Part shown: positions 10,669-56,101 of the stretch, piece by piece | How positions within the stretch are numbered: the first letter of the stretch is position 1 | Layout: each line of letters starts with the position of its first letter | DNA from: an uncultured Sunxiuqinia sp. | GTDB taxonomy: Bacteria; Bacteroidota; Bacteroidia; Bacteroidales; Prolixibacteraceae | Assembly (NCBI RefSeq): GCF_947495665.1 | Contig: NZ_CANLZV010000006.1 | Coordinates: forward strand, 1 to 64,000 | Direction of reading: 5' to 3' | Length of the DNA: 64,000 bases | Made by a program: the position numbers and the translations under genes | Notes under the pieces: generated by a model | What the model was told of the DNA's origin: nothing | Database searches by the model: none | Seen by the model: only the letters and a program-made list of their open reading frames with translations

Positions 10669-11865
10669 TTATTTATTCATAATAATAAAATCTCCATTGC
10701 TTTTCTTAGTCCAGTCAATTGGTACGGTTAGCTTAACAACGTTAAGTACTTCTTCCGGACTTTTCCCCAGATCCAATTTCCCGGATATTTTATAAAGACC
10801 AACCAGTGGATCGCTTAATGTAATGTGAATATTATAATAGCGTTCAATTTTTTTAACCAACCGACTCAGATCTTCCGACTCGGATTTCAGGATACCTTCT
10901 TTCCAGGAAGTATGCATACTAACATCGACCAAGCGAACAGTTGTTTCACGTGTTGTTTTATTCATACTAATTTTCTGATTTGGTTTCAGAAGAATTTGCT
11001 TATCCTCCGCCAGTAAACCTTTTCCTTTGATTTCCAGTCCAACACTTCCTTCTTCCAGTGTTGTTGCGACAAATTCATCTTCGGGGTAGGCCGAGACATC
11101 AAACTTCGTCCCAAAAACACGGACATTTAGTTCGGCTGTACGAACAATAAATGGCTTCTTCTGATTTTGAGCAACATCAAAATAGGCTTCACCCACCAAA
11201 ACAACTTCTCTTTTATTACGAAGAAACACAGAAGGATAAACCAACTGACTTCCTGCATTCAACCATACTTTTGTTCCATCCGAAAGCATGATCATTGACT
11301 TTTTACCATAAGGAATGATTACCTTATTCATCAACTCTTTACCTTCATTTCTGGATTGCGTAATGGTATCGTTATTCACAACCAGTTGATTTCCGAAGCT
11401 ATCGTAAGTAATTTCTGATTCATTCTTCTCCAGCGAGATTTCGGTTCCATCAGAAAGCACAATTTTGGCATCGCCATGATTCGATTCATTCACCTCCGAT
11501 AATTCGTAATGCACTTCCCGTGTCGTTTCGTACACATAAAATGAAACAGCACCGGAAACAAACACCAGAACCATAATGGCCGCATAGCGAAACCATTTTC
11601 CCCAATGACCAACTTTCTTACGCTTGGTATTACGAACCACATCATTCCAAATATCATAGGTTTCGTCTAAACTCAATTTCTCCTGCTCATGCTGGAACAT
11701 GCTCACTATAAATTTGGCCTGTTCCACATTCGCTCTCTGCATGGGATGTTTCATCACAAACTCGGTCCAAAACGCCTCATGTTCTTCCTCCGGATCATTT
11801 AGCCACTGAATAAAATATTCATCGCCTAAAAAGCCCTCTACCGTATAATTCTTGTATCTGTCCAT
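10669..11865 (-). CDS. FecR-family anti-sigma factor
   Basis: Inner-membrane regulator, 398 residues. A cytoplasmic N-terminal region (about 1-85) should bind the ECF sigma factor; one membrane segment follows (about 89-110, YAAIMVLVFVSGAVSFYVY). The periplasmic FecR domain includes KVIIPYGKKSMIMLSDGTKV, WLNAGSQLVYPSVF and GEAYFDVAQNQKKPFIV, and a DUF4974-type C-terminal domain covers about 310-395. Established model: substrate-loaded SusC contacts FecR through its STN domain and releases the sigma factor. The gene lies between the sigma gene and susC, as usual for this family. Confidence 0.95.
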   Translation of the reverse strand: MDRYKNYTVEGFLGDEYFIQWLNDPEEEHEAFWTEFVMKHPMQRANVEQAKFIVSMFQHEQEKLSLDETYDIWNDVVRNTKRKKVGHWGKWFRYAAIMVLVFVSGAVSFYVYETTREVHYELSEVNESNHGDAKIVLSDGTEISLEKNESEITYDSFGNQLVVNNDTITQSRNEGKELMNKVIIPYGKKSMIMLSDGTKVWLNAGSQLVYPSVFLRNKREVVLVGEAYFDVAQNQKKPFIVRTAELNVRVFGTKFDVSAYPEDEFVATTLEEGSVGLEIKGKGLLAEDKQILLKPNQKISMNKTTRETTVRLVDVSMHTSWKEGILKSESEDLSRLVKKIERYYNIHITLSDPLVGLYKISGKLDLGKSPEEVLNVVKLTVPIDWTKKSNGDFIIMNK

Positions 11866-46852: not shown

Positions 46853-48862
46853 CTAGAAGTGAGATATTGATCGCTTGGCACGCACACCCTGATACTCTCC
46901 TTTTTTAACCACTTTCACAATATTCCGGATATTGGCTGCATGATCTGCCTCCGGGCAATCCACGCCATCATCGCAATTATTCAGCAAACGGGTTTCGCCA
47001 TAGCCTTTGTACACAATCCGCAAGGGATTGATGCCTTTCCACACAATATAATTGAAGATGGCTTTTGCCCTTCGTTTCGACAACAGCAGGTTTTCCTGAT
47101 CGTCTCCACGCGAATCGGTGTGCGATTCAATCCGAATCTCAACATCCGGAAACTGAACCAGATAGTCAATGAGTCCGTCCATGGTGTGAGCAATTTCGGA
47201 GTTAATCACCCAGCTATCGTTATAAAACTGAACATCATCTTCGCTCAACACCTGCAATGGCTCTCCGTTTTCAGTTTCCATATAAAGTGGCTCGGGCTCT
47301 CCTTCTTCCAGCACTTCCCGCTCAAGCAAAAGTTGTACGGTCGTTTCCTCCCCTTCCCGCAATTTTAAGGTTCCAAGCTCCACCTTATTTTTGAAATAGT
47401 ATTCTTTTTGCCCCTGAATGGTATAGCTCAGGCCTTTATTCACTTCAAACTGAAACATCCCGTCAGCCGAAGTCAGCTGGGTTGAAAGGGTGTCGGCAAA
47501 CGGATTGACCAGACTGATTTTAGCACCAGCCAAAGGCTGGCCGGTAACCATATCGTTAACCACGCCCCGAATAAAGACCGGGACAGACGGAATGCGAACA
47601 TAGTAAATGTCATCGTTGCCACGCCCGCCTTTTCGGTTCGAGGATAAGTACCCGGCAGTTCCGGTTTTATCCAGCACAAAGCTGAAATCATCTTTCGGAC
47701 TATTCAGCGGATATCCCATGTTTTTCACCGAATGGAAAGTCTCATTTTCAGGTACCGCCACATACACATCCAGCCCTCCCAGGCCGCCATGCCCATCGGA
47801 TGAAAAATAAAACAAGCCATCGTAGCTGACAAAGGGAGAAAGCTCATTGCCACTGGTGTTTATTGCCGGTCCAAGGTTCTCCGGCTCTGTCCAGTAACCT
47901 CCGCTAAATTCGGACCGATAAATATCTGTCCCGCCGTAACCTCCTGGCATATCTGATACAAAATACAGGACGCTCCCCGTGGTGTCGACCGCCGGGTGTC
48001 CGGTGGAATAATCATCACTGTTGAATACAAACTCTCCCCGGTATTCCCACTCTCCTTGTTCCTTACCACCAAACAAAATTTTCAGGTTTACCTCGCCATC
48101 CTTCCCCTTGCTAACATTGTGCCCTTTCCCTACGTTATTGCGTGTAATATACACCCGGTCGCGGTAAGGGTCAAACGCCACCGGCCCGTCATGATAGCTT
48201 GTCTCCAACTTGGGCGCAAATTTTTCAACATTAAGAATATCGCCATTGGGCCCCCGGTCGCCAATAAACAAATTGAGGTAAGGCAATTCGTTCCATTTAT
48301 ATTTTAAGCCAGGCACTCCGTTTACCGCCTTGGTCGATGAAAAAACAAGCTGATCGCGATAAAAGGCAACCCCCAATTCCGATCCGTCGGTGTTCAACGA
48401 AACCGGACGAATTTTATACCGGGTTGAATCACGATGCAATAAACGAATTTGCTCCAGCAACGAGGTTTGAGAGTCAATGCGCTCGTCACCTGGCTTTAGC
48501 TGTGCATACCTGGCCAGCAACTTTTCAGCCTCCTGGTAACGCCCATTACTCTTCAGCACCTGCGAGTAACTAAACACGTCTTCCGGCGATTCTTCTCCGC
48601 AATCAATCAGGAGTTTCAGCCATTTCTCAACCGATTCGGTATCCCCAATTTTTTGATTGGCCTTAGCCAGCTGCCGAATGACATAAGTATCTTCCGGGTT
48701 CTTTTCGTAGGCGAATTCGTATAAGCCAATCGCTTCAATAAAAGCAAAATCCGCATAGCTTTTATCAGCCAAACGAATCGTTATTTTTTGGGCAAGAGTA
48801 AACGAGCAAAGCAGCAAGAAAAAAAACGAAGTCAGGATAATTTTACGTGTTGCCGGTCTCAT
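46853..48862 (-). CDS. OmpA-family protein with TPR and WD40-like repeats (PorE-type T9SS partner)
   Basis: 669 residues: signal peptide (about 1-24), TPR helices (about 30-130), PD40/WD40-like beta-propeller repeats (about 150-420; LGVAFYRDQLVFSSTKAVNG, GNELSPFVSYDGLFYFSSDG), a carboxypeptidase-D-type regulatory fold (about 435-510) and a C-terminal OmpA domain (about 545-655; IRIESHTDSRGDDQENLLLS) that binds peptidoglycan. Such proteins pair with PorP/SprF proteins, encoded here 17 bp upstream, to anchor surface assemblies to the cell wall. Last gene of the T9SS surface operon. Confidence 0.92.
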   Translation of the reverse strand: MRPATRKIILTSFFFLLLCSFTLAQKITIRLADKSYADFAFIEAIGLYEFAYEKNPEDTYVIRQLAKANQKIGDTESVEKWLKLLIDCGEESPEDVFSYSQVLKSNGRYQEAEKLLARYAQLKPGDERIDSQTSLLEQIRLLHRDSTRYKIRPVSLNTDGSELGVAFYRDQLVFSSTKAVNGVPGLKYKWNELPYLNLFIGDRGPNGDILNVEKFAPKLETSYHDGPVAFDPYRDRVYITRNNVGKGHNVSKGKDGEVNLKILFGGKEQGEWEYRGEFVFNSDDYSTGHPAVDTTGSVLYFVSDMPGGYGGTDIYRSEFSGGYWTEPENLGPAINTSGNELSPFVSYDGLFYFSSDGHGGLGGLDVYVAVPENETFHSVKNMGYPLNSPKDDFSFVLDKTGTAGYLSSNRKGGRGNDDIYYVRIPSVPVFIRGVVNDMVTGQPLAGAKISLVNPFADTLSTQLTSADGMFQFEVNKGLSYTIQGQKEYYFKNKVELGTLKLREGEETTVQLLLEREVLEEGEPEPLYMETENGEPLQVLSEDDVQFYNDSWVINSEIAHTMDGLIDYLVQFPDVEIRIESHTDSRGDDQENLLLSKRRAKAIFNYIVWKGINPLRIVYKGYGETRLLNNCDDGVDCPEADHAANIRNIVKVVKKGEYQGVRAKRSISHF

Positions 48863-48879: not shown

Positions 48880-49815
48880 TTAAAAATAACGTGGCGACCG
48901 GACTTTGTCCCGCCCGAAGTTAAAGTCATAGCTCACTAATATTTCATGCGTTCCGTTGTTGTAAACGCCGAAATCGGTTGCTGTGATATCATAAGAATAA
49001 CCCACTTTCAAGCTCTTTGAAATTTGAACCTGCATCATGCCCCCCACGGCATCGCCCACCCGGTACATGGCACCAAGCCACAGACGCTCATAAAAAAGAA
49101 ACTGGGCTGTCAAGTCTAAATCCAGCGGTATATTCGTACTGTACTTGACTAAGAAATAGGGTTTAAACTTGATGATCCGGTTCAAGTCAAAAACATAGCC
49201 GGCCATCAAAAACAAGTGAATATTTTCTTTACTCACATATTCGGACGACGAATTGTGCCGGTTAATTTTATTCTCAATAAGCTTTGGCACCGAGAGCCCG
49301 ACCATGCTTCGCTCCGAATGGTAGTAGATGCCCAGCCCCACATTGGGCAGGAAATTGCGCGTAATATCACTGGCAAATACCGGATCATTCGGATCGACCG
49401 TTTCCAGATCGGACAGCTTGGCTTCAAAAAAGTTAACGCCTGCCTTTAATCCAAAAGACAGGTAACGCCCACGCGTAAAATCAATGCTGTACGAATAATC
49501 GGCATAAGCTCCGGTTTGATTAATAGGGCCCAGCTGGTCTTTCAACAAGGAAAATCCCAAGCCCATGTGCTGTCTGGAAATTGGAGCATGCATCACGAAA
49601 GATTGTGTCGCCGGAGCACCCTCAAAGGAAACCCACTGGTTACGCGACATAACCATAAGACTGAGCACATTGCCGGAGCCGGCATAGGCCGGATTTACGG
49701 AAAGGATATTGTTCATATACTGCGTATACATCGGATCTTGCTGCGCCCAACTTTCCGTTACCGGGAAAAGAACAACACTAAACACCCCCAATATCAGTGC
49801 AAACAATCGCTTCAT
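48880..49815 (-). CDS. PorP/SprF-family outer-membrane protein
   Basis: 311 residues: signal peptide ending near SWAQQ, then the family N-terminus QDPMYTQYMNNILSVNPAYA and a beta-barrel made of alternating strands (GLGFSLLKDQLGPINQTGAY, FGLKAGVNFFEAKL), ending FNFGRDKVRSPRYF. In Flavobacterium SprF is needed for export and attachment of its partner SprB, which carries a type B sorting domain. By analogy this protein serves the type B protein encoded directly upstream (50084-52093). Confidence 0.95.
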   Translation of the reverse strand: MKRLFALILGVFSVVLFPVTESWAQQDPMYTQYMNNILSVNPAYAGSGNVLSLMVMSRNQWVSFEGAPATQSFVMHAPISRQHMGLGFSLLKDQLGPINQTGAYADYSYSIDFTRGRYLSFGLKAGVNFFEAKLSDLETVDPNDPVFASDITRNFLPNVGLGIYYHSERSMVGLSVPKLIENKINRHNSSSEYVSKENIHLFLMAGYVFDLNRIIKFKPYFLVKYSTNIPLDLDLTAQFLFYERLWLGAMYRVGDAVGGMMQVQISKSLKVGYSYDITATDFGVYNNGTHEILVSYDFNFGRDKVRSPRYF

Positions 49816-50083: not shown

Positions 50084-52093
50084 TTAGCGGTCCAGGTAAA
50101 CAAAGCCCGTGACTTTCTCTTTTCCCCGCCCCAAATCCAGGATGTAATAGTAGGTTCCGGTAGCAATCTGTCCGTCACCAAAACGGATTCCTTTGCTGGC
50201 TGTGCCATCCCAAAAGCCATCGCCACTTCGCCCATAGTTATTCGATTCATAAATCAAGCTTCCCCAACGATTCAGAATCCGGAGCTTAACACGTTCATAG
50301 CCATCAATCCCGATAATTTCGAAATAATCATTTATACCGTCGCCATTGGGCGAGAAGGCATTGGGGATAAACAGTGCCTCATCACTGATCCGCACCAAAA
50401 CATTGGCTTCATCACAGTGATTGGAGTAGTCGCACACCGCATAAATAAATTCATCGGCCCCCACATAGTACGGGTTAGGCGTATAAGTAATGATGGAGTC
50501 AGAAGTGACATGAGCAACTCCCTGGCTCGGAGGCGACACAATAGTAATGGATTGCGGATCGAGTTGTCCCTTCGGAGCATCATTCCTAAGCACGTTGATA
50601 TCAGCATAGGTATTGACCAACACGTCTGCCTGGTCATCCGCTGCCGTAACCTGAACAAGCAGGCCTACCACCACCGAATCCAAGGCCGAACAGCCAAAAC
50701 GATCCGTTACCTGAAGGTAGTATTTCCCCAGTCCCAAAACTTGTGGCGTTGCAGTTTGTGCCCCGCTTACAAGCAAACCATCGCCCGATGACCACCAATT
50801 GAACGACAGGTCAGTACCTGCGCTTGAGGAAGCATCGAGCAAAATAACTTCGTTCGGTGAGTTGACAAACACCTGCCTGTCCAGTCCAATTTGGGGCGAA
50901 GGCAGCACTTCCACAAAAACATCATCAGTCGCTGTTTTCCCCCGACTGTCGGTAACCGTAACGGTATAACGCGCAGAGGCTTCCCCCCTTAAAAGAGGTG
51001 TCGGACTTGCCGGATCATCCAGCCCGGCCGTTGGCGACCAGCTATAGCTCAGTTTTCCAACGCCTGTACTTTTGCTGGCATCCAAACGAACAGTTCCACA
51101 ACTTCCTGTCTCCAGCCGCTCAGTTTCAATGATGGCTACCGGCCGGTCTTCCTGGGGCAAAACAACAATTGTTCGGGTATAAACTTGCGATGAACAGCCC
51201 GCCTGGTTAGTGGCTTGCACACTTAATCGGTTCACGCCCGACAAGTTCCAGTTTATTGGTTCGGTGGTGTTGGTTTCCGAACTCAACTGAAGCAACCCTC
51301 CATTAGGCTTTGAAAGTGTCCAGGAATAAGTGTATGCAGAGGCCCCTTGTACCGAATACGCAGAGATCGTCCCAAACGCCACTTCATCCTCATTGGTGTT
51401 GAAGCTAATTTCTGGAGCAGACACCAGCGTAGTGGTTTGAATATCTTTTCCCTCACGGGCGGGAATGGTCAAATTTTGTTTGTCGGTTACTTCAATTAGC
51501 TGAATAGAAACAACCGTATTCTGTGTTGGATCAGCCTCAAAGGCCGTTTCCGGAATATGCAGTTGTTGATTCAGGTAGCTAACGGTTTGCGTTGGTTGTG
51601 GCACATCGTTGACCGTAAAGGAAACCCTTACCGGAAAACGATCAGCCGTCCAAAAGCTGCCCTGATCATCTAAAAACTGAAGCTCAACCGAAAAATCGTT
51701 GTTCCCTTCCTGGTAACATTGGGTGGTCGAAGCATTGGTAACTGCCAGGCCTAAATCTCCAGTTGGAACGACTTCGATAGGAAGTGATCGTCCTGTGGAA
51801 CATCCCAACGGGTTCGTTTCCAATAGGACAATAAAATAAGAACTGGCTTTATGGAATACCAATTTGGTGTGACTTTCTTCTGCTGAAGCAATAAAGTCAT
51901 AGGAATCCTGATTTGCGGGGATCAACGCATTCTCATCTAAGAACACGCCCCACAAATATTCATTTTCATCCACAGCTTCAACTTCGAAAGAAATTTCCTG
52001 TCCAATAAAATAAGAAGTCTGCGCTTGTAATTTAATTACCCCAGTAATTAAAATGAAAAGAGAAATCAATCCTATGGCAATTTCCTTTTTCAT
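50084..52093 (-). CDS. T9SS type B sorting-domain surface protein with PKD-like and cadherin-like repeats
   Basis: 669 residues with signal peptide MKKEIAIGLISLFILITGVI. Order: shared module A (about 25-112), shared module B (about 112-245), PKD/SprB-like repeats (about 245-500; LSYSWSPTAGLDDPASPTPL, GCSALDSVVVG), an Ig-like tandem domain (about 500-575; PNPYYVGADEFIYAVCDYSN) and a C-terminal gliding-motility-type CTD (IPNAFSPNGDGINDYFEIIG to the end) that is the T9SS type B sorting signal. It is exported to the surface and handled by the PorP/SprF protein encoded next. Modules A and B are also found in the two genes upstream. Confidence 0.93.
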   Translation of the reverse strand: MKKEIAIGLISLFILITGVIKLQAQTSYFIGQEISFEVEAVDENEYLWGVFLDENALIPANQDSYDFIASAEESHTKLVFHKASSYFIVLLETNPLGCSTGRSLPIEVVPTGDLGLAVTNASTTQCYQEGNNDFSVELQFLDDQGSFWTADRFPVRVSFTVNDVPQPTQTVSYLNQQLHIPETAFEADPTQNTVVSIQLIEVTDKQNLTIPAREGKDIQTTTLVSAPEISFNTNEDEVAFGTISAYSVQGASAYTYSWTLSKPNGGLLQLSSETNTTEPINWNLSGVNRLSVQATNQAGCSSQVYTRTIVVLPQEDRPVAIIETERLETGSCGTVRLDASKSTGVGKLSYSWSPTAGLDDPASPTPLLRGEASARYTVTVTDSRGKTATDDVFVEVLPSPQIGLDRQVFVNSPNEVILLDASSSAGTDLSFNWWSSGDGLLVSGAQTATPQVLGLGKYYLQVTDRFGCSALDSVVVGLLVQVTAADDQADVLVNTYADINVLRNDAPKGQLDPQSITIVSPPSQGVAHVTSDSIITYTPNPYYVGADEFIYAVCDYSNHCDEANVLVRISDEALFIPNAFSPNGDGINDYFEIIGIDGYERVKLRILNRWGSLIYESNNYGRSGDGFWDGTASKGIRFGDGQIATGTYYYILDLGRGKEKVTGFVYLDR

Positions 52094-52099
52094 TGAAAA

Positions 52100-52130
52100 T
52101 ATACCACCTCAAGAGTTTTGAGGTGGTATA
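52100..52130 (-). other. 13 bp hairpin inside the T9SS operon
   Basis: TATACCACCTCAA (52100-52112) and TTGAGGTGGTATA (52118-52130) pair perfectly across a 5-nt loop. It fills the 55 bp gap between two genes; on the minus strand only TTTTC follows, so it is a partial terminator or an mRNA-stabilising or processing element that sets different levels for the flanking genes. Confidence 0.65.
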
Positions 52131-52148
52131 ATTTTCTATTCAAGTTCT

Positions 52149-53000
52149 TTAATCGACTGTAATCGCACTTGTGTTTGGATAAGTATTTCTGGTGTAGTTA
52201 ATCGCATTTCCTTTACTATCTGTTTCTGTAATTTTACCAGCTCCAACTTCTAAATTAGTTCCTACAAATTGAACAAGAAGATCATCAGAGCTAGATGTTC
52301 CTGGATTATCGGCTACAGTTACTGCAATCGTGAATTTATTTAATCCATCAACCGAAATAGTACCTGATCCTGTTGTAGAAATACCGCTCACCTCTGTTGG
52401 AGTACCAACTACCACAACAGTTGCAGTCTTAGTTACATCAGCCGCATCTTTCACTGTCAATATGTAGTCAAAAGCCCAACCATCCTGAGGATTAAATAGA
52501 GAGCCTTCGTTTTCCAATGAAACAGTAAAATACACAACATTGTCAAGCGGGGTGATTGCTTCAGACATATTAAAAATTCGTCCTGCCCCTTCCATGCAAG
52601 TCTCTAAATCGATGACGTTTTCACTTGCATCCTCATTAACCACAACTAAATCATATGAAGCAGCATTAATTGCAACACTAGTATACCGACTAGTAGAACA
52701 GTTACCAATTGTTTCTGTCACTCCTACATAGTAAGTGGTAGGAGCAATATTCGTCCATGTAATTGTAACTTCGTGAGTTCCTTCGCCCGAAATGATGTAG
52801 TTTGCATTAGAATTAGAGCCAACTGCTGTTTTTAAAGTCGCGTCGGTGTAAACTTCCCATGCATAGCTAGCAGCAGCACCGTGGTCGTCAACTCGAAAAG
52901 TATGAACTTCTCCAGGATAGTGAGTAGCATCTTGTGCCAGCACATTGGCGCTCATGCCCAGAAAAATTAGTACGCTAAATAAAGTAAAGAACTTTTTCAT
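52149..53000 (-). CDS. Secreted two-domain protein of unknown function (modules A and B only)
   Basis: 283 residues: signal peptide MKKFFTLFSVLIFLGMSANV (cleaved near VLAQ), module A (about 24-122; YPGEVHTFRVDD, SYAWEVY, NCSTSRYTSVAI) and module B (about 122-283; ETCMEGAGRIFN, GWAFDYILTV). It consists solely of the pair of domains that also end the upstream protein and begin the downstream one. No T9SS sorting domain is present; it ends NTYPNTSAITVD. Possibly a subunit that assembles with the neighbours through these modules. No known family recognised with confidence. Confidence 0.8.
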   Translation of the reverse strand: MKKFFTLFSVLIFLGMSANVLAQDATHYPGEVHTFRVDDHGAAASYAWEVYTDATLKTAVGSNSNANYIISGEGTHEVTITWTNIAPTTYYVGVTETIGNCSTSRYTSVAINAASYDLVVVNEDASENVIDLETCMEGAGRIFNMSEAITPLDNVVYFTVSLENEGSLFNPQDGWAFDYILTVKDAADVTKTATVVVVGTPTEVSGISTTGSGTISVDGLNKFTIAVTVADNPGTSSSDDLLVQFVGTNLEVGAGKITETDSKGNAINYTRNTYPNTSAITVD

Positions 53001-53050
53001 CTGTAAAAATTAAGGTTATTATTTTTATTATCTATCTATCACATTATTGA

Positions 53051-55153
53051 TTAATCCGTTGTTATATCGGAGGTATTTGGAACTCCCCAAAGAATCACAT
53101 CTTCCGAATCGTTTGAAACATTACTGTCCGAAACTTCAAAAGCATCAGTTGCCTTCACGGTAAGGCCAATTTGCAGATCACTCCCCGTGACGCTACTGAT
53201 AACATATTCTAGCCTAACCGTATTTGAATTTTGATTTTTGCTGACCAGCGTATAAGGAGGAGCTGCCGGGCTTCCTACCGGGCATCCACTATCGTGGTTA
53301 AGACTTGTGTTCGAATATGAAATACCTGAGACGGTTCCTGTACAAATGGGAGTTCCGTCGAGCGTAATGTTGTAATTGAACAGGAAAGGTTCGGTAACGA
53401 TTTCAGGAAAGCTAATCTCCCACGTTATTGTACTTGGAGTTCCCGTCTCTCCTGCCTGACAATCAGACCCTGCAGGCAACAGCTCTACATCAAAATCGTG
53501 GGGGTAAATTCTAATGGGTAAAGTCTCCTGTTTGCCACATAAGGTTCCGTCTCTCCATTTCTCCACTGCAATAAAGTACTCGTTTTCGACACGCAAGTCT
53601 TCCAAAAAGGTGATGGCAACTGAGGTGCCATTCGATTCTTCTGTTTGATTAATGATGTAATAAGCCGGATCAACCTCGTCTCCAAGGTTCTCACCGTTCC
53701 TTTCGAATAATTTCCATTGGTAAGAATACCCCACTTCAGGAATTTTTGAATCAACAGCATAGGTGTGAGTGGACGTTTGCATGGGGTATACTCCTGAACC
53801 AACATCAGTTGAGGTTGAGCCATTGTCGTAGCTGATTTCGCTCAATTCAAAAGTCACATCAATGATTTGGGTGCAAGCCACCGAATTCCCACACTCATCG
53901 GCAAAAGTCCAAGTGATTGTGGTACGCCCTAACGGAAAGTTGGTCTCCGGGATATCTCCTGATCCGGTTATCTCATTTTCTGGATTATTGAAAAGGAAAA
54001 AACTATAAACAGGTTCAATATCTCCAAATTTACAATTATCGGTATCGGCATTAATTACCGGTTTATCAACCGGAATTGTAACAGAACAATCATCGTTGGT
54101 TGGGCTGAAACTTAAATCAACACAGGCAATGACAGGATCAATATCATCTCGAATCGTGAACTCCTGCTCGCAAGTCACCATATTCTTCGATTCATCCATG
54201 ATAGTATACGTTCGGATTACTCTACAGCCACTGGCAGTTGCCGTAACATCCTCGTACGAGATGGTCAAATTACAATTATCCGATACTGCTCCTCCAATAC
54301 TTTCAAAATCAGCAATGTTATTTATCTGTGGTAGATTCTCTATACAGTCAAATGTAGCTGGAGGAGGACAATTGACTGATGGGGAAGTATGATCATTAGT
54401 TACTGAGATTTCATTGGTTTGATACCATTGCGTGCCCAATTTGTAAATAGCATGGTAAATTCCCACTGAATAAACGTCTTTGGTTAGTGCTCCGGCACTT
54501 TCAACTTTGACTCCATCCTGATACCAAAAAATATTGCTCGCTTCCGGCTCCTGGATGCTCAAAGTCACGTTGCCAGAAGGACAAAGTTGCCCGTCCTCAG
54601 GAAAGGAAACCAAGTTATTGGTTGGTTCCACCTTATCGGAAACAATCTGTTCAAAAATGGGGTTGTCGGACTCGCCTTCTAAAAAATCATCCAGCGTTCC
54701 GTGTCCGCAATTATTGATTGTTCCTTGTTCATAGTCAACATCAGGACAAGCAATATCGGTATTATCAAAGTCGGCAGAAACATCTCCAAAAATATACACA
54801 TGCGAAGCATCTGAAACCACTGCCTCAGCATGCTTTTCAGCCCCGGTATGGGTTAATGATCCCAGAATAAACAAGTAACTGTCAATATCCAGCGTAATCT
54901 TATTGGCGGTGATTAGATTCTCCTGAATAATAACAACACCGCCTTGGTTGATCGTTAGTACGACCTTATTGGCTAAGGTTAAATCGCCCTGAACCCAAAG
55001 TGTATCGTTGACAATTAAATTTTGAGAAATTGTTGTGGAGGAAGGGTAAACTGTTGGAGAATTGATATAAATCTGCCCGAAACTTTGGCGAGACAGCAAC
55101 AGACAAAAAAAAAGTATACAAAATAGCAAGCACCGTTCTATTGAAAACTTCAT
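53051..55153 (-). CDS. Secreted HYR-domain protein ending in modules A and B
   Basis: 700 residues from the ATG at 55153, which begins a proper signal peptide (MKFSIERCLLFCILFFCLLL, cleaved near QSFGQ); an ATG nine codons upstream is less likely. The N-terminal part is a beta-rich polymer-like region (VVLTINQGGVVIIQENLI), then HYR-type segments (about 250-440; CPPPATFDCIENLPQI, SDNCNLTISYEDVTATASGC, FADECGNSVACTQIIDV), then module A (about 446-556; YSYQWKLFE, LCGKQETLPIRIYPHDFDVE) and module B (about 556-700). It lacks a sorting domain and ends GVPNTSDITTD. First gene of the T9SS surface operon. Confidence 0.85.
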   Translation of the reverse strand: MKFSIERCLLFCILFFCLLLSRQSFGQIYINSPTVYPSSTTISQNLIVNDTLWVQGDLTLANKVVLTINQGGVVIIQENLITANKITLDIDSYLFILGSLTHTGAEKHAEAVVSDASHVYIFGDVSADFDNTDIACPDVDYEQGTINNCGHGTLDDFLEGESDNPIFEQIVSDKVEPTNNLVSFPEDGQLCPSGNVTLSIQEPEASNIFWYQDGVKVESAGALTKDVYSVGIYHAIYKLGTQWYQTNEISVTNDHTSPSVNCPPPATFDCIENLPQINNIADFESIGGAVSDNCNLTISYEDVTATASGCRVIRTYTIMDESKNMVTCEQEFTIRDDIDPVIACVDLSFSPTNDDCSVTIPVDKPVINADTDNCKFGDIEPVYSFFLFNNPENEITGSGDIPETNFPLGRTTITWTFADECGNSVACTQIIDVTFELSEISYDNGSTSTDVGSGVYPMQTSTHTYAVDSKIPEVGYSYQWKLFERNGENLGDEVDPAYYIINQTEESNGTSVAITFLEDLRVENEYFIAVEKWRDGTLCGKQETLPIRIYPHDFDVELLPAGSDCQAGETGTPSTITWEISFPEIVTEPFLFNYNITLDGTPICTGTVSGISYSNTSLNHDSGCPVGSPAAPPYTLVSKNQNSNTVRLEYVISSVTGSDLQIGLTVKATDAFEVSDSNVSNDSEDVILWGVPNTSDITTD

Positions 55154-55345: not shown

Positions 55346-56101
55346 TTAAAGCCGGTTGTGAAGCAGTTTATCAAGCAATTCTTCTTTGTATTTTGGGGAA
55401 ACACGAAGCTGTGATTTGTCCGACAATTCAACCAGACCGCCATCCGTTTTCAGGTAGCGCTCAACGTATTTCAGATTGACGAGGTGGGAACGATGGATAC
55501 GGCAAAAACCATGCGGCACCAACAATTGATCGAATTCAAGCAAGGTTCTGGAGATAAGCACTGAAGTGCCATTTTGGTAATACACCCGGGTATAGTTGCG
55601 TTCGCCCTCGCAACGTAAAATATGAGTCACCTTAATGATCGCAAAGCCATTCATCTCCGGCAAGGCAATTGTTACGTGCGAACTCTCGCCCTTATTGTCA
55701 ATATTTTTCTTCAGCGCTTCAACCCGGTGTTTCTCATTCAACACCGGAATCTCGCTGATGCGCTGGATGGTTGCTTTGACATTTTCAACCAAAACCGGTT
55801 TTAGGATGTAATCGAAAGCCGAGTATTTAAAGGCCGTAATGGCATAATCGCTATAGGAAGTGGTGAATACCAGCTTGAAGTTAACTTCTGGCAATTTTTC
55901 AATCAGGTCGAAACCCGTACCATCAGGCATTTCAATATCCAGAAACACCAGGTCCGGAGCTTCTTTCAAAATTAGCTCAACTCCGCTCTCGACAGAGTCA
56001 GCTTCACCAACCACATCAATTTCAGGAAATTGTTGATCCAGAATTCGTAATAATACCCTGCGGGCTAATTGATCATCATCAATAATTGCAGCTCTATACA
56101 T
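55346..56101 (-). CDS. LytTR-family response regulator
   Basis: 251 residues: receiver domain (about 1-118) with acidic pocket DDD (8-10), phospho-acceptor Asp55 (DLVFLDIEMPDG), Thr in LVFTTSYSDYA and Lys in YILKPVLVEN; LytTR DNA-binding domain (about 145-250; ILRCEGERNYTRVYYQNG, LLVPHGFCRIHRSHLVNLKY). No histidine kinase gene adjoins it; its partner would be elsewhere. It lies 192 bp upstream of the T9SS surface operon on the same strand and may regulate it. Confidence 0.93.
   Translation of the reverse strand: MYRAAIIDDDQLARRVLLRILDQQFPEIDVVGEADSVESGVELILKEAPDLVFLDIEMPDGTGFDLIEKLPEVNFKLVFTTSYSDYAITAFKYSAFDYILKPVLVENVKATIQRISEIPVLNEKHRVEALKKNIDNKGESSHVTIALPEMNGFAIIKVTHILRCEGERNYTRVYYQNGTSVLISRTLLEFDQLLVPHGFCRIHRSHLVNLKYVERYLKTDGGLVELSDKSQLRVSPKYKEELLDKLLHNRL

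Follow-up and report, generated by a model that had tools for sequence, protein, structure and literature searches.

How do proteins without a sorting domain of their own come to be encoded, one after the other, directly upstream of a type IX secretion system (T9SS) substrate that carries one? The question is raised by five consecutive minus-strand genes, encoding in order P0001, P0002, P0003, P0004 and P0005, in the window analysed here, a stretch of 64,000 nt (positions 1 to 64,000 of contig NZ_CANLZV010000006.1) from an uncultured Sunxiuqinia sp. The genome of this organism comprises 4.73 Mb and its PorP is 74–78% identical to those of the nearest named relatives, which are Sunxiuqinia species. 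For T9SS export, substrates are described as requiring a C-terminal sorting domain. In a Pfam/NCBIfam scan, P0001 and P0002 gave no sorting-domain match at all and a type B sorting domain was found in P0003 only. The answer that we favour, with a probability of about 0.63 judged from sequence, is that the locus encodes a T9SS-exported, surface-anchored chain of different proteins joined by split Ig-like domains, in which gene order would be chain order. The elements on which this reading draws are the following.

53051 to 55153, minus strand: P0001, 700 aa, proposed tip, with a HYR domain, a C-terminal A-B module pair and a putative donor tail, without a sorting domain
53825 to 53845, minus strand: segment LSEISYD of P0001 (residues 437–443), putative in-chain strand A preceding the internal module A
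53081 to 53797, minus strand: module pair A-B of P0001 (residues 453–691), with profile matches of 66.5 bits and E=9.1e-20
53054 to 53080, minus strand: putative donor tail PNTSDITTD of P0001 (residues 692–700), abutting the stop codon
52149 to 53000, minus strand: P0002, 283 aa, proposed link, with modules A and B and a putative donor tail, without a sorting domain
52665 to 52931, minus strand: putative acceptor module A of P0002 (residues 24–112), Ig/PKD-like and without strand A, judged from AlphaFold strands
52191 to 52664, minus strand: module B of P0002 (residues 113–270), from the alignment of 65 homologues and the AlphaFold model
52152 to 52178, minus strand: putative donor tail PNTSAITVD of P0002 (residues 275–283), from conservation among homologues; coil in the AlphaFold model
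50084 to 52093, minus strand: P0003, 669 aa, proposed anchor, with a putative acceptor module A, module B, Ig/PKD and Big_9 domains and a type B sorting domain
51764 to 52018, minus strand: putative acceptor module A of P0003 (residues 26–110), from the profile match and orthologues
51428 to 51763, minus strand: module B of P0003 (residues 111–222), assigned via same-genus orthologues
50087 to 50371, minus strand: type B sorting domain of P0003 (residues 575–669), CHU_C 86.7 bits (cut-off 27) and TIGR04131 47.4 bits (cut-off 35)

An earlier note on this DNA, made from the letters alone, had proposed that the genes at 53051, 52149 and 50084 share a two-domain module, placed C-terminally in the first protein, making up the whole of the second and lying at the N-terminus of the third, the only one with a T9SS sorting domain. 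The genes lie where that note had placed them, and its description was borne out, as regards the sorting domain, by the TIGR04131 and CHU_C matches over cut-off in P0003 only and, as regards the modules, by a link profile of 277 positions built from 65 short homologues of 42 loci, with P0002 as its first row and with P0001 and P0003 excluded. Searched against the window's genome at E≤1e-5, the profile returned three matches only: P0002 (E=1.5e-54), residues 453–700 of P0001 (E=9.1e-20, profile positions 25–277 of 277, which comprise the entire mature module pair and the tail) and the N-terminus of P0003 (E=1.1e-13, positions 1–157). Since the last match spans positions 1–157, the direct evidence in P0003 covers module A and the start of module B. 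The remainder of its module B was assigned because the same-genus orthologues, which are 46, 32 and 37% identical to P0003 across the first ~225 residues, are matched by a profile of eight short proteins that reaches further into module B (E=1.5e-19 in genome G005, 2.3e-27 in G006 and 7.3e-20 in G003). At the level of sequence, the A-B pair is shown to be common to P0001, P0002 and P0003.

Two cysteines of P0002 to which the earlier note had pointed, C101 and C135, are invariant across the 65 aligned rows and have counterparts in P0001 (C539 and C565) and P0003 (C98 and C126); they likely form a disulfide that would bridge modules A and B. The motifs quoted in that note are present too, in an order that differs from that of the genes: SYAWEVY belongs to the gene at 52149, YLWGVF to that at 50084 and YSYQWKLF to that at 53051. 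Pairwise BLASTP of the three proteins was also considered as proof of the common modules and gave a signal too weak to decide: P0002 and the P0003 N-terminus are 24% identical over 116 aa (E=0.015), and P0001 gave nothing significant with P0002 or P0003, its best match to P0002 being the common C-terminal tail. A Foldseek search against the PDB returned generic tandem-Ig matches only (PrgB, titin, PTP-delta), which are uninformative on assembly.

What could join these modules? P0001 and P0002 both terminate in P-N-T-S-x-I-T-x-D, a feature absent from the earlier note. P0001 ends in ...WGVPNTSDITTD and P0002 in ...TYPNTSAITVD, and similar ends are found on most of their short relatives (...NPLPATGEIIPD, ...ARPNTSGIGTN, ...GLPNTSDITFK); P275 and I280 of the P0002 tail are conserved in at least 90% of the 65 homologues. 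The tail was then counted at junctions, defined as a pair of consecutive genes of which the second begins with module A. The main census comprised 50 loci with 146 junctions and 55 chains, on mechanically called open reading frames (ORFs), on which the junction counts depend. Left out of it were L034–L037 and L039, of which L035 and L036 duplicate L021 and L022 and the other three are unmatched by the eight-sequence profile. The strict tail was found in 127/146 proteins upstream of a module-A gene and in 23/386 other ORFs without a sorting domain; with the loose pattern the counts were 135/146 and 83/386. In a non-redundant set (50% over the last 40 residues) the strict tail remained in 72 of 88 upstream proteins against 17 of 214 others, and when the tails themselves were shuffled 26.8/146 fitted the tail pattern. 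Because the main loci were chosen via matches to the link profile, which contains tail columns, link tails are partly selected and chain heads make the cleaner set; there, the strict tail is present in 50/55, and in 31 of the 36 heads in which the profile stops short of the tail. A further 26 loci, mostly of more distant families, were counted apart (L024, L028–L031, L033 and L144–L163). Their 40 junctions showed the tail 34 times with the loose and 23 times with the strict pattern, compared with 42/191 and 23/191 among their other ORFs. Within this group, L029, L030, L031 and L033, which are further PorP stretches from the genome of the window itself, contained no junction.

The census also revealed a regular order. 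No sorting domain was detected in any of the 146 upstream proteins or of the 91 links, whereas 43 of the 55 chain ends carry one, with PorP as the next gene in 40 of these 43. Most chain heads (47/55) have no acceptor module, and chains have from 2 to 7 members. The neighbourhood seen in the window, genes without a sorting domain followed by a sorting-domain gene and PorP, recurs in the 50 loci. With seven consecutive members, L098 is the longest of the chains that terminate in a sorting domain.

The identity of the tail is suggested by modules A that lie inside a protein. A tail-like segment precedes 12 of the 13 internal copies listed (none in L026), as in ELSEISYDNG of the window and in PMTSITYDGQ, SLSDISTDGA and ATQNITYGTG elsewhere. 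L107 is a natural fusion in a single ORF, in which one module pair is followed by the tail GVPATQNITYG and a second module pair with no signal peptide between them; it matches the link profile at positions 2–274 and again at 25–271. In G738, a genome of another family of the order, a 277-residue protein holds three A modules separated by the linkers VNQAPNPVITG and VNETPSPSISG, which line up with the protein's own C-terminus VNPLPNTSLIWHN, and no such segment precedes its first A module. A matrix built on 12 in-chain segments (11 of them distinct; L026 left out) separated tails from other C-termini with an area under the curve of 0.87, from random internal windows with 0.79 and from shuffled tails with 0.77, the sequences being related.

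Structure predictions made for single proteins gave clear folds. In the AlphaFold model of P0002 (mean pLDDT 80), module A has strands at 32–36, 44–51, 68–71, 77–82, 89–98 and 101–111, with pLDDT above 90 in six of its eight 10-residue blocks; ahead of them there is just a one-residue bridge at 27, strand A is absent and the tail is coil. The model of P0001 431–700 (mean pLDDT 91.6) has an extra two-residue strand, S11-Y12, before module A (block pLDDT 93), followed by a one-residue bridge as in P0002, and its tail is again coil. The Pfam PKD_6 alignment on P0002 module A, with a score under the cut-off, begins at position 20 of 82, and a hidden Markov model (HMM) of 38 internal Ig copies (90 positions) gave more than 3 bits for 112/114 N-terminal modules, 93 of these 112 starting at positions 8–16. 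Since the same motif stands in-chain before module A and the strand is missing from module A of P0002, we infer from position and sequence that the tail would be strand A of the Ig-like domain that follows.

Natural rearrangements bear on the same junction. Between the same-genus genomes G003 and G004, DNA identity is 86% as far as base 9477 of L022 and 93% from base 10713 onwards, and the segment between is unalignable. This segment starts where the signal peptide of the link ends and extends to around residue 109 of the sorting-domain protein, where module A ends, and from residue ~121 the aligned sorting-domain proteins are again 83–100% identical. A similar right-hand limit is seen between L071 and L105 of another genus (25–50% identity over residues 1–120, then 80–100%), in which the C-terminal part of the first protein differs too. 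In L102, the link adjoining the sorting-domain protein has been lost, and what remains of it, the signal peptide and module A, is fused to the body of that protein (boundary set by eye); the preceding tail, ARPGTSVIGFN (ARPGTSTIGHD in L097), still stands ahead of the same module A. All three rearrangements end near the end of module A, and of the 11 pairs whose bodies are at least 70% identical, three, the rearranged ones, have acceptors below 50%. Over 903 pairs of 43 loci, acceptor similarity tracks the upstream link (rho 0.65) more than the acceptor's own body (0.32), and tail and acceptor are correlated given the body (0.38; 0/300 permutations). Finally, tails of the RP type pair with acceptors that contain H-x-G-[SNC]-x-[YF]-x-W in 30/39 cases against 7/107, an association recognised post hoc and uncorrected for relatedness.

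Link proteins can be highly variable between close relatives (L022 9477–10713 against L103; L071 against L105) while the next genes are ~90% identical. Such variable links could reflect an exchange of cassettes like that of antigenic or receptor-driven diversification.

Might the tail instead be a short sorting or export signal, read by the T9SS or by a carrier, rather than a structural strand? Such a signal would be expected to be conserved, as the tail is, at the very C-terminal end of proteins that lack a sorting domain. Nevertheless, the same motif also occurs in-chain before module A, where an export signal is unexpected, the type of tail goes with the type of acceptor, and the rearrangements in G003/G004 and L102 keep the tail together with the next module A. 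We regard an export signal as unlikely.

The order of the tails along the chain bears on another alternative, in which P0002 would polymerise with itself through contacts between tail and module A, giving a long pilus-like shaft that carries P0001 at its tip and has P0003 as its base. P0002 holds both a donor tail and an acceptor, and the tails of P0001 and P0002 are much alike (PNTSDITTD and PNTSAITVD), as this would require. A self-polymerising link should, however, share the tail of the protein that precedes it, and tails depend on position: among the 43 chains whose last member has a sorting domain, RP tails stand directly before the sorting-domain protein in 28/43 and one position earlier in 3/40. 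Moreover, tails are more alike at the same position across loci (0.295) than at different positions within a locus (0.234), and P0002's own tail is coil in the model rather than a strand of its module A. Position-dependent tails favour a fixed short order over a homopolymer, which we consider improbable, and the repeating filament suggested in the earlier note is not indicated. Least probable of all is that the locus is a relic of gene fission, in which a multi-Ig adhesin was split into independent surface or periplasmic pieces with functionless linkers as tails, because, although this accounts for the match between tails and in-chain linkers and for the natural fusions, relics should decay, yet the strict tail is kept in the non-redundant upstream proteins (72/88 versus 17/214) and P275 and I280 show at least 90% conservation across 65 diverged links, and independent pieces would each need a sorting domain, which only the last gene of the chain has (0/91 links).

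Several results nonetheless weigh against a chain joined by donated strands. In the census, the strict tail is missing in 19/146 upstream proteins and the strict pattern is missed by 17/40 in the 26 further, mostly more distant, loci; 8/55 chain heads carry an acceptor module; no sorting domain was detected in 12/55 chain ends, some of them at contig ends or in broken ORFs; and the sorting-domain proteins themselves fit the tail pattern by their own C-termini in 15 (loose) or 12 (strict) of 45 cases. With the in-chain matrix, only 39% of tails surpass the 95% level of other C-termini. In the P0001 model the in-chain strand A spans only two residues. Both single-chain models, P0002 and P0001 431–700, have the terminal tail as coil, at a pLDDT of about 77–87, and docking of a tail was seen in neither. 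When the true tail was joined to the next N-terminus, the internal-Ig HMM gained nothing over control tails: 11/112 true tails exceeded the 95% level of controls and 13/112 that of shuffles, with a mean gain of −0.1 bit compared with −0.04 for controls. This probably happens because the strand-A columns carry little information and the spacing differs; the result stays negative. In G003/G004 the upstream tail is identical while the acceptor of the link itself has changed, which means a loose fit between tail and acceptor there, and the mid-part of the first protein is variable too, so that variability extends beyond the cassette. The correlation between tail and acceptor drops to 0.10 given the link body, and the tail is therefore not separable from the link protein as a whole. 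Lastly, the RP rule was seen post hoc and the window's own junctions are of the other kind.

How would such a chain be assembled and held? The remaining features of the locus are these.

53855 to 53986, minus strand: HYR-type domain of P0001 (residues 390–433), PF02494 23.3 bits (cut-off 21.7), best stretch 398–432
51155 to 51421, minus strand: second Ig/PKD module of P0003 (residues 225–313), with APEISF ahead of it in-chain
50393 to 50647, minus strand: Big_9 domain of P0003 (residues 483–567), 45.4 bits (cut-off 23.6)
48880 to 49815, minus strand: P0004, carrier of the PorP/SprF family, TIGR03519 283.1 bits (cut-off 90.55)
46853 to 48862, minus strand: P0005, PorE-like, with TPR, PD40, CarboxypepD and OmpA domains in this order, from the domain scan

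The HYR_4C match on residues 390–433 of P0001 was under its cut-off. The N-termini of P0001 and P0002 are signal-peptide-like, an assignment made by eye, as for all signal peptides here. In the periplasm, the tail of P0001 would complete module A of P0002 and the tail of P0002 would complete module A of P0003. The sorting domain of P0003 would bring the complex to the SprA translocon, which is encoded in the window's genome (PF14349, 593.8 bits, contig C6), and then hand it over to P0004; P0001 and P0002, which lack a signal of their own, would exit together with P0003 as its strand-complemented partners. From the outer membrane outwards the order at the surface would be PorP/SprF, P0003, P0002 and, at the tip, P0001, with the PorE-like P0005 holding the chain from inside. 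P0001 would be a donor only, since its internal module A has the in-chain segment LSEISYD as its own strand A; P0002, the link, would be both acceptor and donor, and P0003, the anchor, would combine an acceptor with the sorting domain, a division of roles such as one would expect of proteins chained head to tail in a set order. Head-to-tail assembly on PorP/SprF, as put forward in the earlier note, is on sequence grounds the best-supported reading, with the difference that the junction would consist of the last ~9 residues of one protein and the module A of the next instead of two module pairs. The implied equivalence of the three module copies holds in part: those of P0002 and P0003 would be acceptors, whereas the copy in P0001 has a strand A of its own. 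The adjacent OmpA-like protein fits a peptidoglycan anchor; since it scored 315 bits with the NCBIfam PorE model and did not reach the cut-off of 600, it is called PorE-like only.

Are there known systems with a similar design? Among the closest is the PG1035-PorP-PorE complex of P. gingivalis, composed of a type B protein, PorP and PorE (PMC9143113). As there, a type B gene in the window is followed by a PorP/SprF gene and by one for a TPR/propeller/OmpA protein, and SprA is present in the genome; type B substrates need cognate carriers (PMC12618676), and substrates bind their carrier inside the SprA pore and exit together with it (PMC10994853). The window differs in its additional upstream proteins, which lack a sorting domain and seem to be linked to the type B protein; the accessible part of the P. 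gingivalis work describes no chain of this kind.

A second comparison is offered by the sprC-sprD-sprB-sprF cluster of Flavobacterium johnsoniae. SprB repeats define this gliding adhesin system, and SprC and SprD are not known to have a sorting domain. It resembles the window in that the genes for a type B adhesin and its SprF carrier are preceded by additional ones, and SprC has been tracked moving along the gliding track. The C-x-C motif in the C-terminal tail of SprF makes a disulfide link to GldK (PMC12635249); in contrast, P0004 contains no cysteine and a disulfide of the SprF-GldK type is thus absent. The SprB repeat PF13573 was not found in P0003, and the only match of the genome at E≤1e-10 lies on contig C10. 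Because P0004 is cysteine-less and has a PorE-like neighbour, a static peptidoglycan anchor is more likely than a role in gliding.

Strand donation has precedents of several kinds. In chaperone-usher pili an incomplete Ig-like fold is completed by a strand of the neighbouring subunit, in head-to-tail order (PMC4789730), but the donor there is the N-terminal strand of the next subunit and assembly involves a chaperone and an usher, whereas in the window a C-terminal tail would supply strand A. Neither chaperone nor usher was detected among the five proteins scanned, P0001–P0005, to which the scan was confined. The type V fimbriae FimA/Mfa1 share with the window the phylum Bacteroidota and a proposed strand donation between surface subunits (PMC4789730); they differ in gingipain-matured precursors and fimbrillin folds, and the Pfam/NCBIfam scan found no fimbrillin family domain in P0001–P0003. 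As far as the accessible sources go, the nearest mechanical analogue found is the pair of obscurin-like-1 and myomesin, in which an incomplete Ig domain is completed in trans by a short linker of the partner, giving a mechanically strong contact (PMC5222588), although these are animal muscle proteins and not a secreted bacterial chain. In the partly accessible open-access literature (no preprints, few subscription papers) we found no split Ig domains in T9SS substrates, and donor strands together with T9SS led to P. gingivalis Mfa1 fimbriae and to one review on secretion and surface colonisation. Every part is therefore of a known kind, and the combination of a C-terminal donor tail, an Ig domain lacking strand A and one sorting domain per chain was not found in that open-access literature. 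We propose tentatively, at somewhat less than even odds, that these loci represent an undescribed class of surface fibre, in which an Ig domain is split at each gene boundary, a single sorting domain exports the chain, and link cassettes are gained, lost or swapped, with recombinational re-tipping.

If type B substrates do carry along donor-strand partners that lack a sorting domain, the set of T9SS-exported proteins would be larger than searches for sorting domains show. A testable role would then fall to the additional genes that precede PorP/SprF-linked adhesins, sprC and sprD of the gliding system possibly among them. It would also add a further design of strand complementation, in which a C-terminal strand is donated to an acceptor that lacks strand A.

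How widespread is the link family? It was detected in 70/140 genomes of the window's family (E≤1e-3), in at least 39/344 genomes of the order and in at least 8/296 of the phylum (both at E≤1e-5). P0002 as a single query found matches in 10/61 genomes, and profiles were needed. The window's own genome holds a second chain-like locus, L032 (contig C10:138000–157900), which encodes a HYR-like protein ending in ITPRPKIIKMN, two proteins 376 and 360 aa in length, a link of 224 aa, a protein of 724 aa whose end resembles a sorting domain, and PorP. In other families of the order, L024, L152, L153, L155 and L158 have tails of the form I-[YWFM]-H-[NQY], such as NPLPNTSLIWHN, before a different N-terminal module, and the donor-tail principle may be wider than the link family. 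L025 (contig C47 of genome G009) is a long series of genes resembling links, of which some have extended N-termini, and includes one 320-aa ORF without tail or module. Directly upstream of the cluster, the window encodes a response regulator that by eye is of LytTR type (55346–56101, minus strand) and that may control the operon; a similar regulator gene precedes the cluster in L020, L021, L070, L038, L091 and L097.

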